Virus record (IMG/VR): IMGVR_UViG_3300023223_001075
Location: 1 to 41,856 of that record
Source: a virus
Strand: one strand, 5' to 3'
Length of the DNA stretch: 41,856 nucleotides
Below, piece by piece: positions 15,699 through 39,133 of the stretch. The position numbers were made by a program, and so were the translations under genes. Position 1 is the first letter of the stretch, and each line of letters starts with the position of its first letter. The notes under the pieces were generated by a model. The model was not told the origin of the DNA. It ran no database searches and saw nothing but the letters and a program-made list of their open reading frames with translations.

Positions 15699-17036
15699 AT
15701 GTTGAATAAATTACTAGAGAAATTAGGCTTCAAGTCCCTTCATGGCCATTTTGGGAATTCCAACCTAATGACTTCAGGCGAAGCAGTCTGGAAGATGGGT
15801 GGTAGCGAATCCTTCGCAACTGAAGGCTTCATGAGGAACGTGATTGCTTACCGCTGTGTAAGCATTATTTCACAAGCCCTCTCCTCCGTGCCCCTTAAAG
15901 TCAAAGTAAATGACAAATTACAAGACAAAACCCACCCCCTTGTCCAGCTTTTAAAGAAGCCTAACTCTCTACAGGGAGGCTCAGACTTTTTTGAATATTA
16001 TACAGCCTACAGGCTCATTGATGGAAATGCTTACCTTGAAAAGATAGAGACATCAATAACTGAGGGTGCCAAAGAGTTGTGGCTCTGGACGCCTATGGAG
16101 ATGGAGATAAAGGCCAAGAATGGGGTGCGAATCCCAACCTCTTATAAATGGACCAATGGCATAACCACTGAAACTTGGGATGTTGATCCCAAAACGGGCA
16201 ACAGCGCAATCATGCACTGGAAATCATTCCACCCCAAGAGTCAATATTATGGGTTAAGCCCAATGGCCCCGGGTGCATTCTCCATTGATCAGCATAATGA
16301 ATCATCAGAATGGAACATGCGCTCTATTCAGAATGGTGCCGTCCCCACTGGTATTCTTAGAAATAAAGGGGGAGCTCTTACTACCAATCAAAGGAAAGAG
16401 ATAAGGCAAGACATCAACGAGTCACATTCTGGGGCAGTGAACGCCAGAAAAACAATGATTCTTCCTGGCATGCTTGAGTACCAACAATTAAGCCTAAGCC
16501 CAATTGATATGGATTTCCTGAACACGCACAAAAATGCCGCAGAGGAAATTGCTGCCGCTTATGGCGTGCCTCTTCAAGTAATCCCTATCAGTGGGAGCCA
16601 AACATTTGCCAATTATGGTCAGGCCCGTCTAGCCCTTTGGGAAGATACGGTAATCCCATTGCTTATAGAATTGATTGGGAGATTGAATAATGAAATCGCC
16701 CCTGGATTTGGTGAAGGTATTGAGATATTCTTTGATCCAAATGACATTGAGGCTCTTTCCGAAAAACGTACTCAAAGACTAAAAGACTTCAATGATATCG
16801 ACTATTTGACCATCAATCAAAAGCTTGAAGCTAATTCTTATCCGCCAAGTGAAAATCCATTAGCTGATGAATTATTTCAGAACGCTTCGGAGTTCCCTTT
16901 AGGATCATTGGATGATCTTGATATGAGCGAAGATGAGCAGGAAAAGATTATGGCAGTTATCCTCATGGACCATAAGGGAATCACAAAAGACGAAGCCTTG
17001 AAGGAGGCGCGTGCCATTATTCAATCCGAAAAATGA
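15699..17036 (+). CDS. HK97-type portal protein (445 aa)
   Basis: The portal ring forms the DNA gate at one capsid vertex. Signature segments are seen in order: EGFMRNVIAYRCVSIISQAL then SSVPLKVKV (about 45-75), LLKKPNSLQGGSDFFEYY, a core with YYGLSPMAPG and PTGILRNKGG, and AAAYGVPLQVIPISG near residue 285, all typical of the HK97 portal family. The acidic C-terminus (SEDEQEKIMAVILM) is a helical clip-like tail. No Shine-Dalgarno is clear before ATG 15699. It overlaps the next gene by 26 bases. Confidence 0.92.
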   Translation: MLNKLLEKLGFKSLHGHFGNSNLMTSGEAVWKMGGSESFATEGFMRNVIAYRCVSIISQALSSVPLKVKVNDKLQDKTHPLVQLLKKPNSLQGGSDFFEYYTAYRLIDGNAYLEKIETSITEGAKELWLWTPMEMEIKAKNGVRIPTSYKWTNGITTETWDVDPKTGNSAIMHWKSFHPKSQYYGLSPMAPGAFSIDQHNESSEWNMRSIQNGAVPTGILRNKGGALTTNQRKEIRQDINESHSGAVNARKTMILPGMLEYQQLSLSPIDMDFLNTHKNAAEEIAAAYGVPLQVIPISGSQTFANYGQARLALWEDTVIPLLIELIGRLNNEIAPGFGEGIEIFFDPNDIEALSEKRTQRLKDFNDIDYLTINQKLEANSYPPSENPLADELFQNASEFPLGSLDDLDMSEDEQEKIMAVILMDHKGITKDEALKEARAIIQSEK

Positions 17037-17769
17037 GGTAGAACGTCAACGAGAGGCGATAATCCAAGAGCGTAACCGCATGATAATGGAGAGACGGGCA
17101 ATCCCTCCATTAAGAAAGGAGTTCAATCGAGTGGCCAAGGTGGCCTCTCAACCTGATGCCAATATGCCCATCATAATTGTTGAGCATCAGAGAAACATTC
17201 AGAACATCCTAAGGCGCATTTATGCAGCGACCATAAGGCAATCCGCAATGCGCACCGTCAGAGAGGCTCCTAAATCGGCCTTCCTGAATATAGAAAAAAA
17301 GGACCTGGAAGGAGAGATTGCTAGACTTATCAGCACTTGGATTTTCACACATGCCCTATTGGAATCATCTTTGATTTCAGGAACAACCCAGTCCATCATC
17401 GTGGACATCCTGGCGGAAAACATTGGTGAATCTGAAATAGTTATAGGCAAAGCCATTCGTGAGGCTGTAGGGGGCAATATTGGCATAAGCAGGGCCAGAA
17501 CCATTGCTAGAACTGAAACTCATGATGCAAGCCAGGATGCACAGCTCCAAATGGTCGAGACAATGAATTTTCCTCCAGACTCTAAAGACTGGGTGGTTAT
17601 TAGAGATGGTCGTGAAAGAAAATCTCATAGGAACGTAAAGAAGGTGCCCCTCAATAGCGACTTCGATGTAGGCGGCAAAAAGATGAGCCGCCCTGGCGAT
17701 AGGAGAGGAGGTGCAGCTGAAGTTATAAACTGTCGCTGCGTTATGATATTTGTAGACAATGATGTCTAA
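17011..17769 (+). CDS. Mu F-like head morphogenesis protein (252 aa)
   Basis: A GTG start at 17011 follows AAGGAGG (17001-17007) inside the portal gene's end. The helical first 150 residues lead to a C-terminal MuF domain: ISRARTIARTETHDASQDAQ, WVVIRDGRERKSHRNV, SRPGDRRGGAAEVINCRCVM. The R-x-x-H, PGD and INCRC motifs define the family. MuF proteins associate with the portal and enter or assemble with the capsid. No extra toxin domain is fused here. Unusually the protease and capsid genes do not follow; a 9.9-kb adsorption block does. Confidence 0.9.
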   Translation: MPLFNPKNEVERQREAIIQERNRMIMERRAIPPLRKEFNRVAKVASQPDANMPIIIVEHQRNIQNILRRIYAATIRQSAMRTVREAPKSAFLNIEKKDLEGEIARLISTWIFTHALLESSLISGTTQSIIVDILAENIGESEIVIGKAIREAVGGNIGISRARTIARTETHDASQDAQLQMVETMNFPPDSKDWVVIRDGRERKSHRNVKKVPLNSDFDVGGKKMSRPGDRRGGAAEVINCRCVMIFVDNDV

Positions 17770-17799
17770 TTACTAAAATAATTCGAAAGGAGCATTTGA

Positions 17800-18087
17800 A
17801 TGGCAGGAAAAACACTATTTACGAATCAAACCATAGATGGGGATTCTTCTGTTTTTGATGCTGACAATGGAGGCAAGGCCAAGATTCGTGTTTTCGGAAA
17901 CTTTGACGGGGCCACCGTTCAAGTCCAAATGGCTTTCAGAGATGCAGATTATGTATCCCTTGAAGACGGCGATTTCACTACTGCAGGCGCAAAAGATGTA
18001 TTGCTTCAAACTGGGATGTCAATTCGATTGAATTTATCCAGTGCTGGAGCTTCAACTGATATCACAGCTGATTTCATAGACGGTTGA
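17800..18087 (+). CDS. Small beta-rich structural protein (95 aa)
   Basis: SD AAAGGAG precedes ATG 17800. The sequence looks like a small beta-sandwich (AKIRVFGNFDGATVQVQMAF, DVLLQTGMSIRLNLSSAG) ending in STDITADFIDG. The closing motif ITADFID also ends the last domain segment of the 41009-41644 tail protein (GSGDITADFIDT). Position at the head of the fibre cassette suggests a head fibre, decoration or fibre-anchor protein. Its TGA overlaps a TTG that may start the next frame. Confidence 0.65.
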   Translation: MAGKTLFTNQTIDGDSSVFDADNGGKAKIRVFGNFDGATVQVQMAFRDADYVSLEDGDFTTAGAKDVLLQTGMSIRLNLSSAGASTDITADFIDG

Positions 18088-18884
18088 TTCTCGGGAAAAT
18101 CATCGGCCCAATAATTGGGAAGATCATCGGAAAAATCATTCCCGGTGTAGAAGGAATCATTCCGGGTGATCCAGTTGTAAATATTATACCACTGAATCCA
18201 GTGGAAACTGAGTCTTTATTGGCTCAGCCTTTAAATTTCACATTAGATGATTCTTTCGGTTTTGACTGGCAGAATAACGAGGCTTCATTTGCTAAAGTTT
18301 CATATCCATGTATGGGTGGCTCAACAAATGCACTTGAAGATAATTCAACAAATGGATTCAATTTAACCAATAGCGGTGGGGTTGTTTTTACTGCTGCAGG
18401 TGGACCAAAAGCAAGCTTACCAAGCTATTGGGACTTTCCTGCTGCCTCTGATGACCTTCGATCACTTGGGTTTAATGGTGTAGGTGTAAATGATGGAGAC
18501 GGAGCCATATCTGTTGCTGGTTGGTTCAGGAACCCTGTCATTGGAGCTATTAGAAGTCTTTGTCAGTGGGGTACACCAACCGATATTGATGACATTCAGA
18601 TAAGAATTTCTGCTACTGATTTTATAGAAGTTAGAATGAGCGGAACAACTGTTGTCACTAGCCTTTCAGCCATATCCGTAGCCACTTGGTTTCATTTAGC
18701 TATTGTGTACAATGGTGGGAATGGGGACACAACAAAGATATTTATCAATGGAATTGATGTTAGTGGCGCAACAAATTCTAAACCTGATCCTACTATAGGA
18801 ACAACCAATAACGTACGATGGGGTAGGAATTTACTTGGAGCCGAAGACTTCGAGGGTGATATGACAGATATGAGGATTTATTAA
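18084..18884 (+). CDS. LamG-like protein, first part of a possibly split gene (266 aa)
   Basis: The only start in reach is TTG 18084, overlapping the previous stop. The first 30 residues are a hydrophobic repeat (LGKIIGPIIGKIIGKIIPG). Residues about 60-265 form a LamG/concanavalin-like domain: DGAISVAGWFRNPVIGAIRS, VATWFHLAIVYNGGNGDTT, KIFINGIDVSGATN, FEGDMTDMRIY. Such domains bind glycans. The domain stops at RIY, exactly where family members continue with 'NRxLSxAEI'; the missing piece is found at the start of the next frame, so this may be one gene broken by a frameshift. Confidence 0.72.
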   Translation: MILGKIIGPIIGKIIGKIIPGVEGIIPGDPVVNIIPLNPVETESLLAQPLNFTLDDSFGFDWQNNEASFAKVSYPCMGGSTNALEDNSTNGFNLTNSGGVVFTAAGGPKASLPSYWDFPAASDDLRSLGFNGVGVNDGDGAISVAGWFRNPVIGAIRSLCQWGTPTDIDDIQIRISATDFIEVRMSGTTVVTSLSAISVATWFHLAIVYNGGNGDTTKIFINGIDVSGATNSKPDPTIGTTNNVRWGRNLLGAEDFEGDMTDMRIY

Positions 18885-21073
18885 TGATACTGTCTGAAGC
18901 TCAAATATCATTGCTTGCTGCTGGAGCAACTAATAAATGGGTCGATAATTTTGTGCCCAAAGCTCCAACTAGAGGACTTGTAGGCGAATGGAATCTTAAT
19001 GATAATATTCCCACAGCCACAATTGTCGATTCTACAGCTAATCCAGCAAATGGAACTATCGGGGGAGGAGAGAACTCTGATGACATGTCTGTTCCTGGAA
19101 AGGTCGGAACAGCACTCACTTTCGACGGAAATGATGATATAACTGTACCTAGTGTTCCTAAGCTTAATGATCATATCACTACTACGATAGGGGCATGGGT
19201 CAATACTTCTCAGGCCACTGGGTCAAATATGCAGATAGCAGGAAGGTTTGTATTTAGAATCTTGAGGAACAATCAAGGCAATGGGGGAGTGTTAATCGCT
19301 ACCCAAGGGCCAACCCCAAACTTTCTGCTGGGTACTACTCCAATCAGTGACGGTTTATGGCATCATGTAGTGGGCGTTTTCGATGGTTCGCAGCATTTGA
19401 TTTATGTTGACGGTGTTCTTGACGGTGTTCAAGCAACAACTGGGGCTCTGTCTTTAGTCGATCAAACATTTGATATGGCTAGTAATGGCGCTGCTGAATT
19501 CTTCAATGGACCAATAAATATAGTAAGAAATTATAACAGAGCCCTTTCTGCTCAAGAAATTATAGCATGGTACTCAAATGAAGCCCCGCTTTTAGTTGCA
19601 AGATTTGATGATACCGCAGCAACCACAGTTGTTCTCGATAGCTCAAAAAGATCAGATAAATTGAATGGGGTTATCGTCGGCGGAAAAACTGCTAGTCAGA
19701 TGACAGTTCCAGGCGTCGTTGATAAGGCCTTCATTTTTGATGGAATCAATGATTATATTAATTTTGGAAACGACTCCAGATATGATATAGTTAGCTGTAT
19801 ATTTATTTCATGCTGGATTATAACACCAGGTATGACTAATTCTTTTGCTACATTCGTAGTAAAAGGTGGAACATACGGAATCAGAAGGAATGGCGTAACC
19901 TCTAATGCTCAATTTATATTGGTTGGTGTGGGAACTGTCAACGGATCAATAGCTATTGATGATGATCAACCGCATCATATTGCTGGAACATATGATGGAA
20001 ATACGATGTCTTTATATATAGATGGAGTTTTAGATTCAAGTTTGGTTGTTTCTGCATCTATAACAACATCGATATTTGATTTAACAATAGGCGGTGTATC
20101 TAGTGGCGAAATGTTCAATGGAACTATAGATGATGTTAGATTAGAAGAATCATGCCCTATCATTGATCAAGTCCAAGAAATGTACAACAAGACAAGGGCC
20201 TGTGCAACTGGCTACAGTGCAATAGCCAAAACAGCTGAGCTATGCAGTGAAAATGCAGTCATTTCAGATATAGAACTATGGAGCCCATCTCAAATAAATA
20301 CTATTGCTTGGTATGACCCAAGTGAAAGAACTAGTATTACAGAGTTATCGGGAGCAGTTAGCCTAATTGCTGACTTGGGTACAATTGGCGGGGAGGATAT
20401 GATTCAAGCTGTAGTTGCAAATCAGCCAACAACTGACACTAGGACTATAAATGGTTTGAATGTTTTGGATTGCGATGGTGGTGACTTCATGGAGAGAGCT
20501 ACGTTCCCAGTTCCTGCTAGTGGTGATATTTCCATATTTATGGTAGCTGAGCTTGATGTTATAAACAGCACAAATGATTCAGTTTATTGCCTGGATGCAA
20601 CCAATGATTTTCAATTTGGGTCCACTAATGCGACTCAATTTGATGGAGGTATACAAACTGCTGGGATAGGTGTAAATGTGCTTTTAACTGGTGGCCCTTT
20701 TCCGGGACCGTCTATTTATAATACGAATTTTGATTTTGCTGGCCTTGTAGCTTATAATGCATTCATGGATGGCACTCAAAGAGCTGTTGACACTGCATAT
20801 ACCACAAAATTAGATGTTAGTCAAACTTTTAGGTTGTTTTCTAATAGAGGTCTGGATCAACAAATAGACGGCGCCTTCGGTGAAACCGTGGTCACTGAGA
20901 ATGTAACCATTGTCACACGAGAATTAATTGAGGGATATCTTGCAAACAAATGGGTGAATAATTTACCAATTGGACACCCATTCAAATTAGTTGCTCCGCT
21001 TGCTAATGTAACTTATGTTACAACGGTAGATGGAATTGTTGTTGTGGACGGATTACCGGTGATTGAAATATAA
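18884..21073 (+). CDS. Multi-LamG adsorption protein (729 aa)
   Basis: It opens with ILSEAQISLLAAGATNKW, the usual end of a LamG domain, which matches the break in the previous frame. Then come a LamG domain at about 30-230 (GLVGEWNLNDN...NYNRALSAQEIIAWYSNEA), a second at about 235-440 (GTIDDVRLEE), and a third concanavalin-like domain at about 465-700 ending EGYLANKWVNNLPIGHPF. The last is paralogous to the N-terminal domain of the 32316-33791 product (EAYLAGKWG). A tail VDGIVVVDGLPVIEI closes it. It is likely a virion surface protein that binds carbohydrate. ATG 18884 overlaps the previous stop (TAATG). Confidence 0.75.
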   Translation: MILSEAQISLLAAGATNKWVDNFVPKAPTRGLVGEWNLNDNIPTATIVDSTANPANGTIGGGENSDDMSVPGKVGTALTFDGNDDITVPSVPKLNDHITTTIGAWVNTSQATGSNMQIAGRFVFRILRNNQGNGGVLIATQGPTPNFLLGTTPISDGLWHHVVGVFDGSQHLIYVDGVLDGVQATTGALSLVDQTFDMASNGAAEFFNGPINIVRNYNRALSAQEIIAWYSNEAPLLVARFDDTAATTVVLDSSKRSDKLNGVIVGGKTASQMTVPGVVDKAFIFDGINDYINFGNDSRYDIVSCIFISCWIITPGMTNSFATFVVKGGTYGIRRNGVTSNAQFILVGVGTVNGSIAIDDDQPHHIAGTYDGNTMSLYIDGVLDSSLVVSASITTSIFDLTIGGVSSGEMFNGTIDDVRLEESCPIIDQVQEMYNKTRACATGYSAIAKTAELCSENAVISDIELWSPSQINTIAWYDPSERTSITELSGAVSLIADLGTIGGEDMIQAVVANQPTTDTRTINGLNVLDCDGGDFMERATFPVPASGDISIFMVAELDVINSTNDSVYCLDATNDFQFGSTNATQFDGGIQTAGIGVNVLLTGGPFPGPSIYNTNFDFAGLVAYNAFMDGTQRAVDTAYTTKLDVSQTFRLFSNRGLDQQIDGAFGETVVTENVTIVTRELIEGYLANKWVNNLPIGHPFKLVAPLANVTYVTTVDGIVVVDGLPVIEI

Positions 21074-21075
21074 TT

Positions 21076-24000
21076 ATGGCTGATGAGATAATAAAGAACG
21101 TTGTTGATAACCAATATGTAAAGGTTGAGGGCTTAAAGGTACTGAATGTTGGCGATGATGTCATATTAACTAATAGCACAGGCAATCTAATTATTGCTGA
21201 AACTGATGTGCTGAAAGGTATTATTAATAAATTGAGTACAGATACTAATGTTTCCAACTTTATAATACATGATATTAATGATATAGCGCTATTTACCGTT
21301 AATGGTGCTGGAGATGTTGGTATTGGAGGTGATCCTTTACCACTTTCAAAGCTGCATGTGGAAGCTGGTGCATCAGGTGTTGCGGCTCCTGCGTTAAATA
21401 GTGTTATGACTTTGGAGAGTGCAGCAGATGGTTTCTTATCCCTTCTTACTCCAAATGCAAATTCAAGTGGCTTACTTTTCGGAAATGTTTCAAACAACGC
21501 AGCAGGAAGTATTAATTACAACTCCACCACAGATGATGGTCTTGATTTTAGAGTAAATGGTAATCTTATTGCTTTAGTTATTGACAAAGATAAAAATGTT
21601 GGAATTGGAATATCTATACCTGATGATCTATTGCATGTGCATAAGGCTAGCGCTGGCGCAGTCTCGGCGGTTGCTGGTAGTGTTATAACAGCCGAAAATA
21701 ACGGACCTTGTTCCCTATCGATACTAGGTCCAAACGGTTCCGAAAGGTCTATATATTTCGGTGATCCATCTAGTAATACTAACGGAGGAATCCTTTATGA
21801 TGCTGCTATAGAAGATGGTTTTGAATTTAGGACATTCCTATCAACTAAAATGGTTATCCTAAAAACTGGTGAAGTTGGCATTGGAGTCACCGATCCTGAT
21901 GCAAAACTAGAAGTAAACGGCACTGTTAAAATATCAGATGATTTTACTGTTGCTGTCAGCCTAATTTTTGTCGACAAGAGCAATGGAACTGTTAATATAG
22001 GTTCAGCCGTTACCGGAACAGACAGATTTAATGTATTTGGACCAGGAACAGGAGTGCAACAAGGCATCGCTAGTTTTTACGATTTAGCGGGTAACATAAA
22101 ATTTAGATTCCGAGATGAAATTACTGGGACAGTACCGCCCCGACTAGAAACTGAATCTTCATTAGGTATGGCTTTCAATACCACTACAAATTCTAAATAT
22201 GTATGGTATATAAATGGAACAGGTAATGAAATAATGCGTCTTACTTCTAATGGACTGGGTATTGGTACGTCAATTCCAGACGCAAGTGCATTATTAGACT
22301 TGTCATCAACCACACAGGGATTTTTAATCCCTAGTATGACCTCGTCACAACGAGACGCAATTGCAAGCCCTAAGGCAGGGTTGCTCATAGATAATGTCAC
22401 TACTGGCAGTCTTCAGAGGTTTAATGGGTCCTCTTGGGGGCAGCCTGCACCAAGTGAAAATCTTGCTGCGGTTTTAGCTATTGGTAATCAGTCCGGTGGA
22501 AACAATCTTTTAATGGATAGCGGTGATAAGATTGGTGTGGGCACTCTCACTCCTGCTGGGAAAGTGCAGATAGCAGAAGACGGGTCCTCCGCTACAGTCT
22601 TTCCTGAAGAGCCGTGTCTTGACGACTGGGTGCTTCAAACTAGCGCAGCGGATAACGATTGGGATGACATAGCCTTTGGCAATGGAGTGTTCGTAGCTAT
22701 TTCAGCTACTGGCACCGACCGTGTGATGACTTCAACAGATGGCGTCACTTGGACAAACATCTCAACTCCTCTAGATGGCGTTGCTCTAAAAGGCATTGCC
22801 TATGGTAATGGTCGATTTGTTGTTGTCGCTTTCGGCACTTCTTTTATGACGTCTGATGATAATGGAGCGACATGGACAACAAGAACTATCGGAACGAGTA
22901 ACCAATGGGTTTCCGTTGCATACTCAGTGACTCTAGATAGATTTGTAACAGTCAACGCCAGTGGCCCTGACCCTAAAGCAGCACACTCAGATGATGGCGG
23001 TGAGACTTGGACGGTCGCCGACACTGGCCTAAACAATAACCTGTGGAACGACATCACATGGGGCGAGGTCGGCGGTGGTACGTTCGTCGCAGTTTCAAAC
23101 GATGGTGCCAACAAGATAGCCACATCAACAGATGGAGAAACGTGGACGGCACGCACTGAGCCTACTTCGCATGTCATGCGTTCGGTTACTTTTGGTAACG
23201 GCATCTTCATAGCAGTAGGTGACAATGGTGTGATTGATGGGCGCGTATTGCGGTCAGATGACGGTGGTATTACTTGGACTGATAAAACTGCTGTTAGTTT
23301 AAATAATTGGAGGTCTGTAACCTTTGGCAATGGTCATTTCATGGCTGTGGCAAAAACTGGCACCGGTGACAGAGCCATGACCTCTACAGATGGTCTTACA
23401 TGGATCACTATAGCAACCCCAGCTGATAACAACTGGGAAGCTGTAGCGTTTGGCAATGGTAAATTTGTAGGTGTGTCCAACACTGGCTCTGGTGATAGGG
23501 TGATGACACTCCCCTTGATTGAAGTTTCTGTTTTAGAATTAGTTGAGGATGTTCCAGAAGTATTAGGTGCTTGGGCAAGCGAGACCAGCTCAGAAGATAA
23601 CACTTGGAATGATATCGCTTTCGGCAACGGATTATATGTTGCTGTTGCTGGTGATGGTACTAATAGAGTCATGTCGTCACCTGATGGCGTTACTTGGACA
23701 AATAGAACTGCTGCTGAAGCAAATGATTGGAGAGGCATAACATTTGGAGGAGGCCAGTTTGTAGCCGTTGCTACTTCAGGTACTAACCAAGTGATGACTT
23801 CACCTGACGGCATTACATGGACAGCAAGGTCTATGACCAGTTCTGACTGGCGATCTGTTACATTTGGTGATGGTACATTTGTTGCTATTAGTAGAACTTC
23901 ACTCCCTGATGTTGCAACCTCCCCTGATGGTATTACTTGGACTGATAGAACTTCGGCTGGCCTCTTAGGTTGGCGAGAAGTTATTTTCGTCCCTGAGTTG

Positions 24001-26238
24001 TCATTGTTTGTTGCTGTAGCTGGTGCAAGTTCTAACCAGATTATGACATCTCCAGATGGTATCACTTGGACTATAAGAACAACACCAGACAATTTGGAAT
24101 ACAGGTCGATTGCTTTTGGTAATGAGATCCTGGTAGCAGTTGCAAGTGATGGAACAAATAACCAAGTGATGACTTCACCAGATGCCATTACTTGGACTCA
24201 GAGAGTAACACCTGTAGATCAATCTTGGTTGCATGTTGCATTTGGTAATGGTCAATTTGTTGCGGTTTCAACTTCTGGAACTGGTAGCAGGTGTATGACA
24301 TCAACCGATGGCATCGTCTGGGCATTAAAGACAACGCCAGTGGACAATGCTTGGGAATCTGTGACCTTTGCTAATGATCAATTCGTTGCAGTAGCCACAA
24401 GTGGTACAGGCGATAGAGCAATGACATTGCCCTTGCAAGGCACATCAACTGCAATATTAGATTTGAAGTCAACTACATCAGGTTTCTTGCCTCCTCGAAT
24501 GACAACGATGCAGAGCAATAATATACCATCACCTATTGCAGGGCTATTCGCTTACAATCTTGATACTAAACATAATACCACATACGATGGTACTGCATTT
24601 CGTGAATTATCGCAAACCGCAGTTAATACGGTTGAAATTTTCCAGGAAAGCGATTGGCCAAATGATCCCGTTGCTGGTGTACTAATAATTGATAGTGGAC
24701 GCTATTTGATTAAGGATGGTTACACAACCGGAAATCGATTTGAAATAGCAGTAGGAGCTCAGCTAATTATTGAAGGCGAATCGTTATCACCACTTATTTA
24801 TGTCGGAACCGGTACTTTGTTTTCGGGCACCCCAGAAGTATTTGGAATATTTTCAACCATTGGAGTTTTAGCTGCACCGGGTTCACAATTATTTGATTTA
24901 ACGGCCGCAAATCCATTGACTTCAATAATGATTGTCGAAAGACAAACTCAATTTGTAGCAGTGGCAGGTACAAACACAATTGGTACAATTCAAGGTTTTA
25001 GGGTGCCAGTAATTCAAGCAACAATTTTTAGTGGGTTTCAAGAAGGCATAACATTTATTGATGGGTCAATGCTTTTGGATAATATCAATTTTGCTATGAA
25101 TCTAACTGGAACATCTCCAATAGTAAATTTATCCGGCAATTTTCTTGTTGGTGCAAGTAGATTCTGTGATTATCGCGGGAGTGCCTCACAACCTTTATTC
25201 AATATTGACCCCGCTATTGATGTACCAATATCTATTATTAATAATCGTAATATTTTTGATACTGAATTTTTTGAATCTGGCATAACTGGTGCATTCACGG
25301 CTGTTACAGATGACTCAATTTTTGCTACTTCTATAACTTCGGTAATTGATTCGCCTACTACGCCTGGAATAGCTCGATTTCTATTTACTGCTGGACCGAC
25401 CGTAAATGTCAACCAAGAGGTTATAAACAGCGGATTTGTTACTGAAACTACCTATAACGCGACTGAAATAATAACAGCCACAGATGGTACGACATATTTC
25501 GAAACATCTATTGCCTTTACAGCTACTGATACTGGCTCGTTCTTATCAAATTCTGTTAATATATTTTCAGCATCGCATGGGTTTTCCAATGGGCAAACAT
25601 TACTTATGGACACTGACTTGTCAACTGACTATGATGGTGGTGTAATTTTATACAATGTTACGACTAACACATTCCAAATAAATCAAACCTTTACTACTAC
25701 ACATACAGGAAGCTGGGATACTGGAAGTTTAACCGAAAAAGCTGTAGTCATGACGGTTAAGGATAATCCATCTCAAGGTAGTAGCAAATTTATTGCGACT
25801 TCTTTTGTAAATAATAATACCACAGCAAACGGCTCTATAGTAAATAATACTTTTACTGATATGGTATTTGGAACTGTTGGGAGCGCCTTAAATGTAGGTT
25901 CAACTATTGAGCGTTGGAAATTAATTGATGAAGTTAATGGCACATTTGAATATACAGGATTAGAACCTTTTGACGGTTTGCTCACTTTTGATTTCACGGT
26001 ATCTGCTTCATCTGAACAAGAATTCAGATTTAAATGGGTTGTTGATGAAGGGAGCGGTTTTGGTGACTTAGCGGACAATGTGGAGGCTTTGGCTAGTATT
26101 AAAGATACTGCTCAGAGTGTTACAAAAACATTTCCATTAGCGTGTAATAAAGGTTGTCAGATAAAACCACAAATAACTCGTAATGCAGGTTCTGAAACGA
26201 TAACGACACGTTATGCAACTATTTTTGCAACTCAATAA
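21076..26238 (+). CDS. Giant tail fibre with two seven-bladed beta-propellers (1720 aa)
   Basis: Residues 1-517 are fibre-like with repeated 'GIG...P..KLHV' units (VGIGGDPLPLSKLHVEAG) and ASALLDLSSTTQGFLIPSM. Residues about 518-814 and 833-1120 each contain seven repeats of about 41 residues of the form 'W..VAFGNGxFVAV...MTSxDGxTWT'. Each block starts with an isolated Trp strand and its seventh repeat ends in MTLPL, as in ring-closed propellers. Residues about 1122-1720 contain AILDLKSTTSGFLPPRM, then beta-solenoid-like sequence and a C-terminal beta domain. No S74 autoprotease is visible. The likely role is host receptor binding. There is no clear Shine-Dalgarno before ATG 21076. Confidence 0.85.
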   Translation: MADEIIKNVVDNQYVKVEGLKVLNVGDDVILTNSTGNLIIAETDVLKGIINKLSTDTNVSNFIIHDINDIALFTVNGAGDVGIGGDPLPLSKLHVEAGASGVAAPALNSVMTLESAADGFLSLLTPNANSSGLLFGNVSNNAAGSINYNSTTDDGLDFRVNGNLIALVIDKDKNVGIGISIPDDLLHVHKASAGAVSAVAGSVITAENNGPCSLSILGPNGSERSIYFGDPSSNTNGGILYDAAIEDGFEFRTFLSTKMVILKTGEVGIGVTDPDAKLEVNGTVKISDDFTVAVSLIFVDKSNGTVNIGSAVTGTDRFNVFGPGTGVQQGIASFYDLAGNIKFRFRDEITGTVPPRLETESSLGMAFNTTTNSKYVWYINGTGNEIMRLTSNGLGIGTSIPDASALLDLSSTTQGFLIPSMTSSQRDAIASPKAGLLIDNVTTGSLQRFNGSSWGQPAPSENLAAVLAIGNQSGGNNLLMDSGDKIGVGTLTPAGKVQIAEDGSSATVFPEEPCLDDWVLQTSAADNDWDDIAFGNGVFVAISATGTDRVMTSTDGVTWTNISTPLDGVALKGIAYGNGRFVVVAFGTSFMTSDDNGATWTTRTIGTSNQWVSVAYSVTLDRFVTVNASGPDPKAAHSDDGGETWTVADTGLNNNLWNDITWGEVGGGTFVAVSNDGANKIATSTDGETWTARTEPTSHVMRSVTFGNGIFIAVGDNGVIDGRVLRSDDGGITWTDKTAVSLNNWRSVTFGNGHFMAVAKTGTGDRAMTSTDGLTWITIATPADNNWEAVAFGNGKFVGVSNTGSGDRVMTLPLIEVSVLELVEDVPEVLGAWASETSSEDNTWNDIAFGNGLYVAVAGDGTNRVMSSPDGVTWTNRTAAEANDWRGITFGGGQFVAVATSGTNQVMTSPDGITWTARSMTSSDWRSVTFGDGTFVAISRTSLPDVATSPDGITWTDRTSAGLLGWREVIFVPELSLFVAVAGASSNQIMTSPDGITWTIRTTPDNLEYRSIAFGNEILVAVASDGTNNQVMTSPDAITWTQRVTPVDQSWLHVAFGNGQFVAVSTSGTGSRCMTSTDGIVWALKTTPVDNAWESVTFANDQFVAVATSGTGDRAMTLPLQGTSTAILDLKSTTSGFLPPRMTTMQSNNIPSPIAGLFAYNLDTKHNTTYDGTAFRELSQTAVNTVEIFQESDWPNDPVAGVLIIDSGRYLIKDGYTTGNRFEIAVGAQLIIEGESLSPLIYVGTGTLFSGTPEVFGIFSTIGVLAAPGSQLFDLTAANPLTSIMIVERQTQFVAVAGTNTIGTIQGFRVPVIQATIFSGFQEGITFIDGSMLLDNINFAMNLTGTSPIVNLSGNFLVGASRFCDYRGSASQPLFNIDPAIDVPISIINNRNIFDTEFFESGITGAFTAVTDDSIFATSITSVIDSPTTPGIARFLFTAGPTVNVNQEVINSGFVTETTYNATEIITATDGTTYFETSIAFTATDTGSFLSNSVNIFSASHGFSNGQTLLMDTDLSTDYDGGVILYNVTTNTFQINQTFTTTHTGSWDTGSLTEKAVVMTVKDNPSQGSSKFIATSFVNNNTTANGSIVNNTFTDMVFGTVGSALNVGSTIERWKLIDEVNGTFEYTGLEPFDGLLTFDFTVSASSEQEFRFKWVVDEGSGFGDLADNVEALASIKDTAQSVTKTFPLACNKGCQIKPQITRNAGSETITTRYATIFATQ
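22627..23517 (+). repeat. Coding repeats, propeller A (seven units)
   Basis: Seven units encode blades with the core 'FGNGxFVAV' and 'TSTDGxTWT'. Units begin near DNDWDDIAF, ALKGIAYG, QWVSVAYS, LWNDITWG, VMRSVTFG, NWRSVTFG and NWEAVAFG. The last lacks the TWT strand, which the initial DDWVLQTS strand can supply. Confidence 0.85.
23572..24435 (+). repeat. Coding repeats, propeller B (seven units)
   Basis: Seven units follow the same pattern as propeller A, beginning near TWNDIAFG, DWRGITFG, DWRSVTFG, GWREVIFV, EYRSIAFG, SWLHVAFG and AWESVTFA, with TSPDGITWT at their ends. The first strand WASETS pairs with the short final unit, giving again a closed seven-bladed ring. Confidence 0.85.
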
Positions 26239-26253
26239 TACAATAGGATAATT

Positions 26254-27186
26254 ATGCTACATAATATATTCAACGATGAGGTGAGCGCCCAAGCGGCGCT
26301 TGATGCCGATTTTGAAGACTATAAGACGGCAAATAATTATTCAGCTAGTAATGGGTACTGGATTGTAACCACATCATTGGATGTTGTGGCTCAAAGAGTC
26401 ATTGATGGAAAGTGGCATTATGAAAAATGTAATGACTCCCTAAGCACCCACACAGAAGAAGAATATGATCCTTCATGGGAGATTGCTCCTGAGCCATCGT
26501 CTTTCTTCATGAAGACGAATCTCGATAGTAGCTCAACCTTTGACCCAGCTCTAAATATATCAGCCACATGGGATTATGGAGATGGGAATAGTGATACTGG
26601 TTCTAGTGTTTCACATACCTATACAGATGAAGCCGCATCTCATGACGTTACCATAGATGATATTGATATAACTGCCGTTACGGTAATAAGCGCTACTGGT
26701 GATGGAATCACAGATATTGATGTCACTGGTTTCACCGGTCTAATAACGATGTGGGTCTATTACAACCCATTGCCAAACTTAGACGCTTCAAATTTGCCAT
26801 CACTTATAGACCTAAGAGTTGGTCTTAACAACACTCTAGAAACCGCTGATCTTTCTGGCTCAGACAATATTCAGTACCTAAATTTAAGAACTGGATTATT
26901 GACTGAGTTAGACATTTCTAATTTGACTGCTATGCATCATTTAGAGGTATATGATAATTTGTTGACTAGTATAGATATTTCTAGCCATCCTTTGCTTACA
27001 TATGTTCGAGTTCAAGGGAATGTATTATCTTCTACAAATTTGGCTAAAATCATATCTGATCTTAAAGGCTTTGGAAAGCTTAACGGAACTTTTGAGTTCG
27101 ATGGAACACCCCACATTTCGGCTTTGGATGATTTCAACGGCTTAGTAACTGATGGATGGAGCATAACAGGGAACACACCAGCATGA
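26254..27186 (+). CDS. PKD-like and leucine-rich-repeat adsorption protein (310 aa)
   Basis: Residues about 1-80 are a mixed domain (LDADFEDYKTANNYSASNG, IDGKWHYEK). A PKD/Ig-like domain follows (ISATWDYGDGNSDTGSSVSH, TYTDEAASHDVTI; about 105-145). From about 150 to 290 there are leucine-rich repeats of the bacterial 'LxxLDxSxxxxLxxLxV' type (LTELDISNLTAMHHLEVYDN, LLTSIDISSHPLLTYVRV). This is a protein-binding or glycan-binding surface protein, probably linked to the fibre just upstream. LRR proteins are rare in phage virions. It overlaps the next ATG. Confidence 0.75.
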   Translation: MLHNIFNDEVSAQAALDADFEDYKTANNYSASNGYWIVTTSLDVVAQRVIDGKWHYEKCNDSLSTHTEEEYDPSWEIAPEPSSFFMKTNLDSSSTFDPALNISATWDYGDGNSDTGSSVSHTYTDEAASHDVTIDDIDITAVTVISATGDGITDIDVTGFTGLITMWVYYNPLPNLDASNLPSLIDLRVGLNNTLETADLSGSDNIQYLNLRTGLLTELDISNLTAMHHLEVYDNLLTSIDISSHPLLTYVRVQGNVLSSTNLAKIISDLKGFGKLNGTFEFDGTPHISALDDFNGLVTDGWSITGNTPA

Positions 27187-27422
27187 CTCACACAACTGAA
27201 GGGTTTTACATCTGCACAAATGCAATTGATATATTCCATACATCTGAAGTAAAAGATGGTAGGAATCTAACCACTGGGCAGCCTTATGTCTTATTTGGGG
27301 AAACCGAGGATGAGGTCTTTGGGAAAGCATTTGTTAATCCCACACGAGATATTCACGGTGAATTTGACATGACGGAATTGACCCCCAAATCTGCAGCTGA
27401 TATTATATCAAATAAAATTTGA
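27183..27422 (+). CDS. Hypothetical protein (79 aa)
   Basis: ATG 27183 overlaps the TGA of the PKD/LRR gene; a longer frame from 27156 is unlikely. The product begins MTHTTEGFYICTNAIDIFHT and has a small beta-rich body (RNLTTGQPYVLFGETEDEVFG) and ends in LTPKSAADIISNKI. No family is recognised. It could be a chaperone for the fibre proteins, as small genes after fibre genes often are, or a lysis regulator given the next gene. Confidence 0.6.
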   Translation: MTHTTEGFYICTNAIDIFHTSEVKDGRNLTTGQPYVLFGETEDEVFGKAFVNPTRDIHGEFDMTELTPKSAADIISNKI

Positions 27423-27649
27423 TGCCAGATAACGAAAATCATGCACTCCCAGCCAATCACTACATAAAAGTCAATGGCATGATAGAAGAAAAGGTAGCAC
27501 CCATCAAGGAAGACATAAAGTCTATGAAAACCTCAATAACTCAGATTAAAACAGTTGGCTCATTCCTAAAATGGCTTATTCCTTTGGGTATGGCCGGGAC
27601 GGTGGCTTTAAGCTCATTGATTGCTGGACTTATTGTCAAGCTGCTTTGA
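27422..27649 (+). CDS. XhlA/holin-like membrane protein (75 aa)
   Basis: The first 45 residues are charged and helical (MIEEKVAPIKEDIKSMKTSI then TQIKTVGSF), followed by one strong transmembrane segment (LKWLIPLGMAGTVALSSLIA, GLIVKLL) at the C-terminus. This N-terminal coil plus C-terminal anchor is the layout of XhlA-type phage membrane proteins, which assist cell lysis. No endolysin lies next to it, so the holin reading is uncertain. ATG 27422 overlaps the previous stop in TGATG. Confidence 0.62.
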   Translation: MPDNENHALPANHYIKVNGMIEEKVAPIKEDIKSMKTSITQIKTVGSFLKWLIPLGMAGTVALSSLIAGLIVKLL

Positions 27650-27656
27650 TTGATGA

Positions 27657-27683
27657 TTGACACTAAAACCTTTTTGAGATAAT
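27657..27683 (+). promoter_or_regulatory. Promoter for the protease-capsid unit
   Basis: TTGACA (27657-27662) and GATAAT (27678-27683, 15-bp spacer) lie just before the protease ATG at 27690. With the terminator at 29964-29993 it would make protease, capsid and decoration genes a separate highly expressed unit. The transcript would start at or within a few bases of the ATG and no Shine-Dalgarno is visible. Confidence 0.5.
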
Positions 27684-27689
27684 TACGTT

Positions 27690-28361
27690 ATGGAAATGAA
27701 AAGGATAACAGTTCCTTTTGAGATGAAACAGGTCTCTGAAGAAGGTGAGTTTGAGGGTTTCGCCTCCACCTTTGGAAATGTTGACTTTGATGGTGATGTA
27801 GTAGAAAGAGGAGCATTCGTTGATGATCTAAAGGAATGGAAGGCCAAGGGTCAACTTCCTTTAATGCCATGGCAGCATGATATGCGGGCCCTGGTTGGTG
27901 ACTTTCTTTCTATGGATGAGGTCGAAAAAGGCCTATTCGTTAAAGGTCAATTCTGGGTTGGATCAAAATCTACTGATCTTTCAAAAATGGCTCACAATTT
28001 ATTTGTTGGTACAGGACCTAAGGCGATGTCAATTGGTTTCTCTGTACTGGATTCTGAAGTGAAATTAGTTGATGGCGAAAGAGTCAGGTCAATTTTAAAA
28101 GTTAAATTATTTGAAGTGTCTATTGTTCCATTCGGGGCGAACCCTGAAGCTTTGGTCACTTCTTCAAAAAGTTTAGTCACGCCGGAAGGAATCCCGGTAG
28201 ACAAAAGGTCCTTTGAGAAAATCTTGCGAGATGCCGGACTCTCATGCAAACAGGCCAAAACCCTCCTATCAGGGGGCTATTCTGCGTTGAATCGAGATGA
28301 TGAGATGAATGAATTGTTAGCAGCAATTAAAACCCTATCAAACTCTATTCAAGGAAAATAA
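27690..28361 (+). CDS. HK97-type prohead protease (223 aa)
   Basis: A serine protease that matures the capsid by cutting the delta domain of the major capsid protein. Family landmarks are seen: EGFASTFGNVDFDGDVVERG (about 20-40), the catalytic His in MPWQHD (about 63), catalytic Ser in KAMSIGF (about 113), and LFEVSIVPFGANPEALV (about 143-159). A C-terminal extension (KRSFEKILRDAGLSCKQAKT) may be scaffold-like. ATG 27690 or 27696 may be used. Two bases separate it from the capsid gene. Confidence 0.92.
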   Translation: MEMKRITVPFEMKQVSEEGEFEGFASTFGNVDFDGDVVERGAFVDDLKEWKAKGQLPLMPWQHDMRALVGDFLSMDEVEKGLFVKGQFWVGSKSTDLSKMAHNLFVGTGPKAMSIGFSVLDSEVKLVDGERVRSILKVKLFEVSIVPFGANPEALVTSSKSLVTPEGIPVDKRSFEKILRDAGLSCKQAKTLLSGGYSALNRDDEMNELLAAIKTLSNSIQGK

Positions 28362-32315: not shown

Positions 32316-33791
32316 ATGAGCTTAGTTTTTGATGGATGGTGGGACGCCTTTGACACAAGCACTTTCACAATTGTAAGTGACAAGGTTACCAACTGGGCCA
32401 ACAAAGGGACCGAGGGTTCGGCTTGGGATATGGCTCAAGCCGATACGGCGAAACAGCCAAAGCTTAAATCTGATGGTGCCAATGGGATTAATGTTTTAAA
32501 TTTCGAAGCTGCTGATTATTTATTGACGACGGGTAACGCTATAGAGCTGCCCAACGATGTTACAATTTTTACCTGTTTCAAGCCCATTCAATGGATTAAG
32601 ACATTTGCCGCTGGCGCCCATAATAATGATTCTTTCTTTTGGGGAAACTCAACTACTGGGGCCGACATCTTCACTATAGAATCAGGAATTAAGGTTGACC
32701 AAAATGGTGAATATGGCATAGCTATTGATACAAATGCAGCCAACTGGACCCCAGATCATATCTCAAATAGCAGCCAGAAATATGAGAACCGTATGCATGT
32801 TGCTTGTGCTCATCTTAATTTTGCATCAAACACAGCCCGGCTCTTTGTGGATGGAATGTTTGAAGCGGAGAACACAGCTTATAGCACCGGGATTTCAGTC
32901 AGTAGCCCACAAGATATTATGTTTGGTGCAAATGACTCTGAACCTGATTTCGCAGGATTTGAAGTTTATTACGGCGAGGTCATCATAATCAAAAGAGCCG
33001 TGACAATAGAAGAAAGGAATAGCATCGAAGCTTATCTTGCTGGCAAATGGGGTGCTCGCTTATTTCCTGCTGAGGCTTCTGGTAATTATATTGCAACTGT
33101 GAGAGATTCCGTTACAGCTGACCCGATTGAAAATGTAGTTATTGACTTTTCATATACCGAAGGGGGGCCAGTCGTGCTCAGTCAAACTACTGATGTAAGT
33201 GGAAACACTGCCGGGGCTACATTTAGAACAGGTCCAATATTTTGGAAAACAACTCTCGCAGGATTTGAAGAAAATAAAAACTCTTTTGTAGCTAATCAAA
33301 CAGGCGGTTCTATAAATATTATCATCACTGAATCTCTTGTCTCTGGAGAAATAAGGATTGTCTTAGGCTGGGCTGAAGCTCCACTCGATTTGGATGCTCA
33401 TACCTATGGACCTGTGCTTCCTTCTGGGTTCGAGCATGTGTACTTTTCAAATAAGCAATTGGGTTCAGCAGACTTTGAGTTAGACAGAGACGATAGAGAT
33501 AGTTTCGGACCAGAGACGACTACAATCCATAGGTTAAACACTGGCACTTATGAGTTTGCAATTCATGATTTTAGCAATAAGGATTCAGGAACAAGCAACA
33601 TAATGGGTGCTCAAAGCGAAGCTGTTGTCACTGTTTATAGATTCGGCCTTCCAACTCTATTTTTTAATGTCCCCAACATTGCGGGAACGGTCTGGGATGT
33701 GTTTGATATAGACGGTGACACAGGGGTTTTAACTCCGATTAATACGATGAGATTTGAGTCTAGTGCTGCCAATGTTCTCCCTGCCCCTTAA
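32316..33791 (+). CDS. ConA-like / Ig-like / YfaP-like surface protein (491 aa)
   Basis: Three parts are seen. Residues 1-245 are a concanavalin-like domain (FDGWWDAFDTSTFTIVSDKV, HVACAHLNFASNTARLFVDG, ending EAYLAGKWGARLFPAEASG), paralogous to the last domain of the 18884-21073 product. Residues about 248-345 look like an Ig/carboxypeptidase-regulatory-like domain (VRDSVTADPIENVVIDFSYT). Residues about 346-460 resemble YfaP/DUF2135 (LGWAEAPLDLDAHTYGP, LDRDDRDSFGPETTTIHR, GTYEFAIHDFS). It is probably a virion appendage. SD AAGGA precedes ATG 32316. Confidence 0.72.
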   Translation: MSLVFDGWWDAFDTSTFTIVSDKVTNWANKGTEGSAWDMAQADTAKQPKLKSDGANGINVLNFEAADYLLTTGNAIELPNDVTIFTCFKPIQWIKTFAAGAHNNDSFFWGNSTTGADIFTIESGIKVDQNGEYGIAIDTNAANWTPDHISNSSQKYENRMHVACAHLNFASNTARLFVDGMFEAENTAYSTGISVSSPQDIMFGANDSEPDFAGFEVYYGEVIIIKRAVTIEERNSIEAYLAGKWGARLFPAEASGNYIATVRDSVTADPIENVVIDFSYTEGGPVVLSQTTDVSGNTAGATFRTGPIFWKTTLAGFEENKNSFVANQTGGSINIIITESLVSGEIRIVLGWAEAPLDLDAHTYGPVLPSGFEHVYFSNKQLGSADFELDRDDRDSFGPETTTIHRLNTGTYEFAIHDFSNKDSGTSNIMGAQSEAVVTVYRFGLPTLFFNVPNIAGTVWDVFDIDGDTGVLTPINTMRFESSAANVLPAP

Positions 33792-33800
33792 ATAAATACC

Positions 33801-34223
33801 ATGTCAGAAGCTTGTGGAAGTGAATTTTTATTATCAATTGGCACAACTGATTTGGTGCCAGTTTTTACTCAGATTGCTTGCATCAAAGACACAGCCGTAA
33901 ATGTCAGTCGAGAGACCGTTGATATCACTACAAAAGATAGCAATGGGGCTCGGGATATTCTGGGATCATGTGGGGTCAAGACATGCACCATAACAGGCGG
34001 TGGAGTGTTCAATAGTCAGGATGCTTTCATTGAAGTTCAGCAAGCTGCCATCACTCGAACTCAACGAGTCTTTAGGGTCACTTCAGATTTAGGCGACACT
34101 TGGGAGGGGAAATTTTTAGTATCCGCCTTTGATAGAAATGGGTCTTTTAATTCTGCTGAAGAGTTTGCCATGACTTTAGAGAATGCATCCATGATTGTTT
34201 ACACCCCTGCTGCTTTGCCTTAA
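33801..34223 (+). CDS. Major tail-tube protein paralog 1 (140 aa)
   Basis: This belongs to the TP901-1-type tail-tube group. Shared landmarks with the two later copies are the N-terminal CGSEFLL, KDTAVNVSRETVDITTKDS, a CGVKTCTITGGGVF turn, VTSDLGDTWEGKFLVSAFDR and YTPA at the end. It lies upstream of the gp10-like and DUF3168-like genes, an unusual position for a tube gene. It ends directly at the next ATG. Confidence 0.85.
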   Translation: MSEACGSEFLLSIGTTDLVPVFTQIACIKDTAVNVSRETVDITTKDSNGARDILGSCGVKTCTITGGGVFNSQDAFIEVQQAAITRTQRVFRVTSDLGDTWEGKFLVSAFDRNGSFNSAEEFAMTLENASMIVYTPAALP

Positions 34224-35076: not shown

Positions 35077-35496
35077 ATGCCTGATAAGTATTGCGGAAGT
35101 GGATTTTTAGTCCTGCTACAGGACTTAATTACTCCAGCTAATTATAATATTGTTGGCTCGATGAAAGATACCTCATTGTCTATCAGTAATGAAATGGTAG
35201 ATGTGACCAGTAAAAGCAGTGCTGTGACTCGTCAATTATTGGATCAATGTGGAATAAGCAGTCTATCAATATCTGGCTCCGGAGTGTTTACTGATGATTT
35301 GACTGTTCAAGAATTGCAGGTTGCCTCACAAACTGGTGCAGTAATTGTTGCAAGATTGGTATCAGATTACGGAGATAAATATGAAGGACCCTGGCAGATA
35401 ACTAGTTTTGACAGGAATGGAGGCTATAACGGCGCCGAAGAATACAGCGTTTCTTTTGAAAGCGCCTCAGATATAACTTACACCCCAGCCCCATAA
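35077..35496 (+). CDS. Major tail-tube protein paralog 2 (139 aa)
   Basis: This shares the family pattern with its paralogs: YCGSGFLVLLQDL, MKDTSLSISNEMVDVTSKSS, CGISSLSISGSGVF, LVSDYGDKYEGPWQITSFDR, NGAEEYSVSFESASDITYTP. It occupies the usual tail-tube position, after DUF3168 and before the chaperone. Identity to copies 1 and 3 is moderate, so duplication is not recent. No Shine-Dalgarno is evident before ATG 35077. Confidence 0.85.
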   Translation: MPDKYCGSGFLVLLQDLITPANYNIVGSMKDTSLSISNEMVDVTSKSSAVTRQLLDQCGISSLSISGSGVFTDDLTVQELQVASQTGAVIVARLVSDYGDKYEGPWQITSFDRNGGYNGAEEYSVSFESASDITYTPAP

Positions 35497-35507
35497 CAGG
35501 AGATAAC

Positions 35508-35921
35508 ATGTCAGAATTTTGCGGAAATTTATTTTTACTAAAAGTCGAGGACTCTCCAGGATCTACCACTTTTACAGAAGTTGGTGTATTCAAAGAGACG
35601 GCCTTAAGCATCAACAATGAAACGGTTGATGTAACCGACAAGAGCACAGCTCCAGCTAGAACTCTTTTCAATTGTGGAATCAATTCAATGGCGATAACTG
35701 CGTCTGGAAATTTCACTGCAAACGCCCCTTTGCAAATCATTGCATCTAGGTCCAGAGATGGAGCCTTATACAATTATCAATTAGTTTCTGATTATGGAGA
35801 TATCTATGAAGGTGCATTTCAGACAGTAACTTTTGACAGAAATGGCGCATTCAATGGCGTAGAAGAATGCTCAATTTCCCTAGACAGCTCAGGCGTAATC
35901 GCTTACACCCCAGCCCCATAG
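35508..35921 (+). CDS. Major tail-tube protein paralog 3 (137 aa)
   Basis: This again has the family landmarks: FCGNLFLLKVEDS, FKETALSINNETVDVTDKST, CGINSMAITASGNF, LVSDYGDIYEGAFQTVTFDR, GVEECSISLDSSGVIAYTP. It has a good Shine-Dalgarno (CAGGAG) unlike copy 2. All three copies keep the FDRNG turn and the closing YTPA, so all could polymerise. It lies directly before the chaperone gene. Confidence 0.85.
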   Translation: MSEFCGNLFLLKVEDSPGSTTFTEVGVFKETALSINNETVDVTDKSTAPARTLFNCGINSMAITASGNFTANAPLQIIASRSRDGALYNYQLVSDYGDIYEGAFQTVTFDRNGAFNGVEECSISLDSSGVIAYTPAP

Positions 35922-38341: not shown

Positions 38342-39133
38342 ATGGCAGGATCAGCTCACACTAGTATAAATCTCCAAGAGGTATTGTTTGACAATGCACT
38401 TGAAGGAAAAGCGTTCACATATACCGAAACAGAGATAGCAGGTTTTGAAATTCAAAACATGCTGGACTGGAGAGACTTCTCGGTTTTTCGTGAGCTTATA
38501 GGAGGTTTTGGTCAAATAGATTTCACCATGACGGAGGACACTGTCATTGACACATTGGCTTTCTTTTACGTCGCCAATACAGGATTTCTAACTGATGCGG
38601 TGGAGGTATATTATGAAAGTGCTCCAGCTGTATTCACTCTTTTGCAATCATCTGGGTTCGTAGACAATCGGGTCATGAGGTTTAGCACATTTACTCAAAC
38701 AACTGTTTTGTCTGGAAGAAAGATAAGGATTGCATTTATTGATATTTCAAAAGATATTCAAATAAGGTCCTTAGTAGTAGGTGAAAGATTGCAGTTTTTA
38801 ATGGGTCAATGGTCAGGAATCAATCCACCTCAATTGAATCAAGGAGTTGTAGTTGGAAACCCAACAGCCGTCAATGGTTCTTTCCTAGGTCGCAACCAAA
38901 GGCGTGCTGAGAACAGAGGAATGATTAAGCTTGAGAATCTTTCACAAACTTGGGTACGAGACAATTGGAACCCATTTTCAATCGCCGCAACATCTCATGC
39001 ATTCTTTCATAGATGGAATCCAACTGAGTTCCCCAGTGAGACAGCATTCACTGTTGGAGAAATAATGGCCCCAAAAAATGAAAGCGCATCCTTGATGTCT
39101 GTCGAGATGCCTACAATGTTTATAGTCGAATGA
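38342..39133 (+). CDS. Distal tail / minor tail protein (263 aa)
   Basis: A beta-rich protein after the tape measure, where distal tail proteins are coded. It has VLFDNALEGKAFTYTETEIA, DTLAFFYVANTGFLTDAVEV, IDISKDIQIRSLVVGERLQF and a second half beginning GRNQRRAENRGMIKLENLSQ. The 'IGxLxxGxxLxf... R...' layout is that of minor tail proteins seen with GTA-like and lambda-like tails. ATG 38342 lacks a clear Shine-Dalgarno and follows the structured region. It overlaps the hub gene by 4 bases. Confidence 0.72.
   Translation: MAGSAHTSINLQEVLFDNALEGKAFTYTETEIAGFEIQNMLDWRDFSVFRELIGGFGQIDFTMTEDTVIDTLAFFYVANTGFLTDAVEVYYESAPAVFTLLQSSGFVDNRVMRFSTFTQTTVLSGRKIRIAFIDISKDIQIRSLVVGERLQFLMGQWSGINPPQLNQGVVVGNPTAVNGSFLGRNQRRAENRGMIKLENLSQTWVRDNWNPFSIAATSHAFFHRWNPTEFPSETAFTVGEIMAPKNESASLMSVEMPTMFIVE

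Follow-up and report, generated by a model that had tools for sequence, protein, structure and literature searches.

A tailed-phage fibre with two predicted tandem seven-bladed Asp-box propellers, encoded in the head gene module

A fibre gene with two predicted propellers

The window, the whole stretch of DNA that was analysed, spans 41856 bases and corresponds to one IMG/VR virus record; its genes include those for terminase, portal, MuF, protease, capsid, and tape-measure proteins. It encodes a long surface fibre in which two tandem seven-bladed beta-propellers are predicted (Table 1). We consider this protein to be, probably, a modular fibre with two closed rings of the short Asp-box type, in which the pair arose by ring duplication and the most likely activity is non-enzymatic adhesion.

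The fibre ORF has no match in PHROG or NCBIfam. Pfam matches above cut-off in its propeller part were to EPTP (PF03736) and DUF6242 (PF19755); a match to Flu_PB2_2nd in the window fell below cut-off and was taken as chance. The preliminary description of this DNA, made from the sequence, had located the propeller pair correctly at 22627-24435, which corresponds to residues 518-1120 of the ORF. Ahead of the pair, the repeats of the N-terminal shaft start at residues 81, 175, 267, and 394. Two minus-strand ORFs lie antisense across the propellers at 22800-23330 (176 aa) and 23334-24188 (284 aa); these were rejected as genes and regarded as mirror images of the repeat sequence.

Table 1. Features of the fibre gene and of the interval that contains it (residue numbers refer to the fibre ORF)
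Feature	Coordinates	Strand	Remarks
Variable slot	17770..27689		From MuF (17011-17769) to S78 prohead protease (27690-28361)
95-aa protein at slot start	17800..18087	+	No PDB or PHROG match
266-aa protein	18084..18884	+	N-terminus MILGKIIGPIIGKIIGKIIPG; LamG (concanavalin-like) domain
729-aa protein	18884..21073	+	Two LamG matches
Fibre ORF, 1720 aa	21076..26238	+	Tailed-phage surface fibre; contains both propellers
N-terminal shaft, residues 1-517	21076..22626	+	Four V/LGIG..P repeats
First anchor segment, ALLDLSSTTQGFLIPSM..., residues 405-454	22288..22437	+	Similar to second copy; cyanophage matches
Propeller 1, residues 518-815	22627..23520	+	Seven blades; three of six Asp-boxes regular
Propeller 2, residues 833-1121	23572..24438	+	Seven blades; six of six Asp-boxes of short type
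Second anchor segment, AILDLKSTTSGFLPPRM..., residues 1126-1175	24451..24600	+	Similar to first copy
C-terminal part, residues about 1186-1720	24631..26235	+	Common to phages with other or no propellers
310-aa protein	26254..27186	+	PKD domain and LRR-like stretch (internalin J model match)

Blade anatomy and ring closure

Each block contains seven units, which measure 41, 41, 45, 45, 44, 42, and 39 residues in propeller 1 and 41, 41, 40, 43, 42, 42, and 39 residues in propeller 2. The usual blade has a W..V.F strand, an FVAV strand, and a VMTS strand followed by an Asp-box ending in Trp, the last blade being without this Asp-box. Each block starts with a single outer Trp strand (WVLQT in one, WASET in the other) and finishes with a blade that has no outer strand of its own and ends in MTLPL; the six Asp-box-like motifs per block are accompanied by this N-terminal Trp strand in place of a seventh. 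The preliminary description had reported this layout with units of about 41 residues, and it holds with actual lengths of 39-45. The repeated motif that marks Asp-box propellers is present in 12 copies, nine short (S-x-D-x-x-x-W) and three regular (S-x-D-x-G-x-T-W), the regular ones all in propeller 1, by the definitions of Quistgaard and Thirup 2009 (PMC2716378). A blade profile built from 11 propellers, two of them the window's own, scored 683 bits on the propeller region, and the best of 500 residue shuffles scored 11 bits, so the repeats stand well beyond chance expectation.

Structure prediction, proposed as a check in the preliminary description, was run by AlphaFold2 with an alignment of 27 tandem propellers as input. 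The model has a mean pLDDT of 87.9, with 447 of its 644 residues scoring at least 90, and contains 14 blades in a ring-type strand order: in both blocks a lone D strand precedes seven A-B-C sets, which are separated by six D strands, and the seven strand sets per block match the sequence units. The ring-to-ring arrangement in the model is unsure because its pTM is only 0.54. Two closed seven-bladed rings are supported by the model, by the strand order, by the multiples of seven found in relatives, and by the sister relation of the two rings, which points to doubling of an entire ring, while the end-to-end contact within each ring is one that we infer from the lone N-terminal strand and the last blade without an outer strand seen in both blocks. 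In such a clasp closure, the N-terminal strand would supply the outer strand of the last blade in each ring. The original claim of two tandem seven-bladed propellers is thus upheld by the modelled blades and agrees with the blade counts of relatives; the alternatives of an open solenoid or a different blade count are rejected by the model, the strand order, and these counts.

Comparison with known propellers

Asp-box (BNR) propellers resemble the window's rings in carrying one of the two motif forms at the same place in each blade, and the BNR-type likeness proposed earlier stands, with nine of 12 motifs belonging to the known short variant. Members of that group are mostly glycosidases or Vps10 receptors (PMC2716378), whereas no catalytic set is seen here. 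Among solved structures, the closest sequence relative of the family profile is Ycf48 (PDB 8am5, E 1.3e-4), a photosystem II assembly factor and not a lectin; the present protein differs in having two tandem rings in a phage fibre and no link to photosystem II. Phage and bacterial propeller proteins of the DUF6242/EPTP type (PF19755, PF03736) are in many cases single rings, unlike the two rings in a long fibre found here. Single-ring viral predicted structures gave TM-scores of 0.87 and 0.90 by target length, the higher, against one ring, being the one annotated as DUF6242. Some PDB matches are solved proteins that have two seven-bladed domains, but they superpose poorly along the full length. 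GH74 xyloglucanases are alike in having tandem seven-bladed Asp-box propellers, but no sequence match to them and no evidence of their catalytic pair was found in this protein.

Published work describes beta-propellers of other sorts in the tail devices of phages as well as a phage sialidase with Asp-box propellers, and a paper on propeller amplification covers viruses too. A search of open-access papers found none on this double-ring fibre.

Relatives and multiples of seven

The double-ring fibre belongs to an already known and widespread kind of propeller in phages. A first viral scan returned 11 loci with propeller relatives. A second, with an alignment as query, returned at least 447 stretches in viruses, and 323 bacterial stretches came from a scan of genomes. 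Blades were counted with one profile HMM, taking complete ORFs that had four blades or more among the best-scoring loci. Of these ORFs, 72 of 90 in viruses and 55 of 59 in bacteria had a blade number divisible by seven; weak blades overlooked by the HMM would be one cause of the exceptions. The number of tandem rings among relatives ranges from one to five, with single ORFs holding three times seven blades in locus L002 and five times seven in L020. Viral propeller relatives are fused to collagen repeats in L006, L020, and L080, and another sits inside a Phage-tail_3 protein (L011). Certain genes adjoining viral propeller relatives match baseplate and tail families. Cultured phages that encode a related propeller protein include Limnohabitans phage DC31 and Synechococcus phage B23.

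Two of these loci deserve separate mention. The open frame L020:1-8334, which overruns the start of its locus, encodes a long collagen region together with its five seven-bladed rings. In Synechococcus phage B23, a plus-strand open frame of 323 aa with seven blades (L014:3905-4873) occupies a stretch annotated as two minus-strand hypothetical proteins, b23_0328 and b23_0329, and this annotation is likely on the wrong strand.

Origin of the ring pair

Rings 1 and 2 are sisters with support of 97/97 in a careful tree of 46 rings, in which propeller 1 lies on a long branch and the bootstrap had not settled. In a FastTree of 169 rings the two were not joined. When the blades of the two rings were compared, the register pairing blade i with blade i was the best of seven, and 0.16% of permutations were equally good. 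Because the rings are sisters in the 46-ring tree and their blades pair in register, duplication of a whole ring is the best reading of how the pair was produced.

Anchor segments and C-terminal part

Two similar segments had been described as bounding the propeller pair. The two anchors are indeed 46% identical over a gap-free alignment (23 of 50 positions), but the first is separated from its propeller by residues 455-517. It matches cyanophage proteins, including the "phage tail fiber-like protein" of P-SSM2, and phage matches to the N-terminal shaft are confined to residues 387-454; a scan of viral contigs with the N-terminal 517 residues as query found no relative. No copy of the anchor pattern was present in the other propeller loci examined up to that point. 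The idea that the propellers had been inserted between copies of one anchor draws weak support, the anchor being common to cyanophage fibres and the pair itself probably stemming from ring duplication, and duplication of the anchor through propeller insertion was rejected on account of its sharing among cyanophage fibres. Assignment of the protein to a phage fibre is supported by these matches and by the occurrence of propeller relatives on collagen fibres and in a tail-tip protein.

The C-terminal part has relatives at 45% identity in locus L178 and 44% in L179. In L178, the relative comes after repeated units of about 50 residues that belong to another propeller-like class; three blocks can be counted clearly and contain about five units apiece, and as read from the sequence these units would form propellers. 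In L179, the relative stands alone as an ORF with no propellers, close to a tail-fibre gene. Since relatives of the C-terminal part carry a different propeller array or none, the propellers behave as exchangeable cassettes of virion fibres. An AlphaFold2 model of the C-terminal part from four sequences had a pLDDT of 43, too poor for use.

The L178 protein is a 2602-aa open frame (L178:1794-9599) with several blocks of propeller-like repeats of about 50 residues, four F.DGSTQ-like pieces, and, at its end, the C-terminal part that it shares with the window's fibre.

Position in the head module

The fibre gene lies upstream of the major capsid protein gene, together with LamG and PKD protein genes, in a 9.9 kb interval between the MuF and prohead protease genes. 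A cousin contig, L176, has portal, MuF, protease, and capsid proteins 54%, 64%, 62%, and 44% identical to those of the window; its MuF-protease interval is 7.5 kb and has one small gene beside the protease in common (42%), the rest being unrelated. The corresponding gap in L177, L182, L183, and L185 is 0 to about 0.9 kb. The interval is a variable appendage slot of the head module. The tail-length gene and a fibre gene of the tail module (39130-40998), separate from the one studied here, lie more than 10 kb further on.

Since the fibre gene is in the head module, a capsid spike has to be considered, and a tail position of the fibre is doubtful. The protein could sit on the capsid as a head spike instead of belonging to the tail, a placement that we rate as possible but short of probable and that is compatible with an adhesion fibre. 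Together with the neighbouring LamG and PKD proteins it would then form a head adhesin set giving a first, reversible contact, as in RcGTA. The gene's place well ahead of the tail genes favours this, as do the swapped slot content in L176 and its near or complete absence in the other relatives. The repeated Ile-Ile-Gly start of the 18084 product also recalls the N-terminus of RcGTA head fibres, which plugs a pentamer of base protein on the capsid; RcGTA head spikes bind capsule (PMC7296036). They are the nearest known analogue, alike in their Ile/Leu-Gly-rich N-terminus, which is here found in the neighbouring gene and not in the propeller protein itself, and no sequence link to RcGTA was found. 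The 95-aa product at the start of the slot is a possible spike base, but it has no sequence match to a known one. The location of a gene does not settle where its product sits in the virion, the anchor has a match annotated as tail-fibre-like, and the L179 relative of the C-terminal part lies near a tail-fibre gene. A speculative proposal, which we regard as rather doubtful, is that the MuF-protease interval serves as a slot for exchangeable adhesins that are borne on the capsid as spikes. In this lineage it would be occupied by the double-propeller fibre and the lectin-like LamG and PKD proteins, and the phage would first touch its host with the head, using cassettes that close relatives exchange as wholes.

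Three further observations were made in the window. The N-terminus of the 18084-18884 product (MILGKIIGPIIGKIIGKIIPG) contains five Ile/Leu-Gly-type repeats ahead of LamG, directly behind the 95-aa ORF. Three paralogues of about 140 aa (33801-34223, 35077-35496, and 35508-35921; 35-48% identity) lie upstream of the tape-measure gene. The proteins of 32316-33788 and 18884-21073 share a region of about 280 residues at 27% identity.

Adhesion, spacing, or catalysis

For the adhesion fibre that we favour, the repeat shaft would carry the two rings, followed by a C-terminal part common to fibres of unrelated phages. The rings would attach to a component of the cell surface or of the space outside the cell, probably a glycan, and their doubling would raise avidity or broaden the range of ligands. 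Binding of the host surface by the propellers is likely, judging from the fibre context, the lectin-like LamG and PKD domains encoded by neighbouring genes, and the swap of propeller class; the double lectin head for host binding put forward in the preliminary description is plausible. The sequence anatomy, the ring model, the duplication, the module exchange, and the head-module position were read or computed from the sequences; fibre assembly, surface exposure, ligand binding, and the purpose of that binding are what we infer. Conserved positions in the family alignment are structural and indicate no binding site.

Propellers serve as plain scaffolds as well, and the rings may instead space or stabilise the shaft, binding no ligand themselves. 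The variable tandem number, the structural nature of the conserved residues, and the absence of propellers beside the C-terminal part in L179 are consistent with such a role. Large globular rings would be costly as spacers, however, and the exchange of propeller class in L178 and the divergence of the two rings would fit ligand binding better, and we therefore consider spacing unlikely.

A polysaccharide-cleaving enzyme would be expected to carry certain marks: in GH74, a pair of catalytic aspartates set between tandem seven-bladed rings, or in GH33/GH58 sialidases, a FRIP motif, an arginine triad, and six blades. The best PDB fold match is a GH74 enzyme, and weak profile matches reach Asp-box regions of sialidases (E 0.0065 and 0.04), but no GH74 chain was matched by sequence, and the fold matches over the whole length have TM-scores near 0.37 with an rmsd of about 26 A and so reflect the propeller fold only. 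The rings have seven blades instead of six, there is no FRIP motif ([FYW]RIP) anywhere in the protein, and the family alignment has no conserved acid outside the Asp-boxes. The preliminary description had likewise seen no catalytic set, which agrees with these results and with a single-sequence search that gave no significant match to a solved glycosidase. A glycosidase, having neither motif nor sequence in its favour, was rejected and is in our estimate very improbable.

The protein illustrates clearly how phage fibres are assembled from complete closed propellers as units, which occur singly or two to five in series; rings are duplicated in their entirety, and another propeller class can take their place on the same C-terminal part. 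Blade numbers in sevens, in phages and bacteria alike, give an easy criterion by which other repeat fibres can be judged. Should the location in the head module indeed reflect capsid spikes, the slot would help to find head adhesins among unclassified phages.
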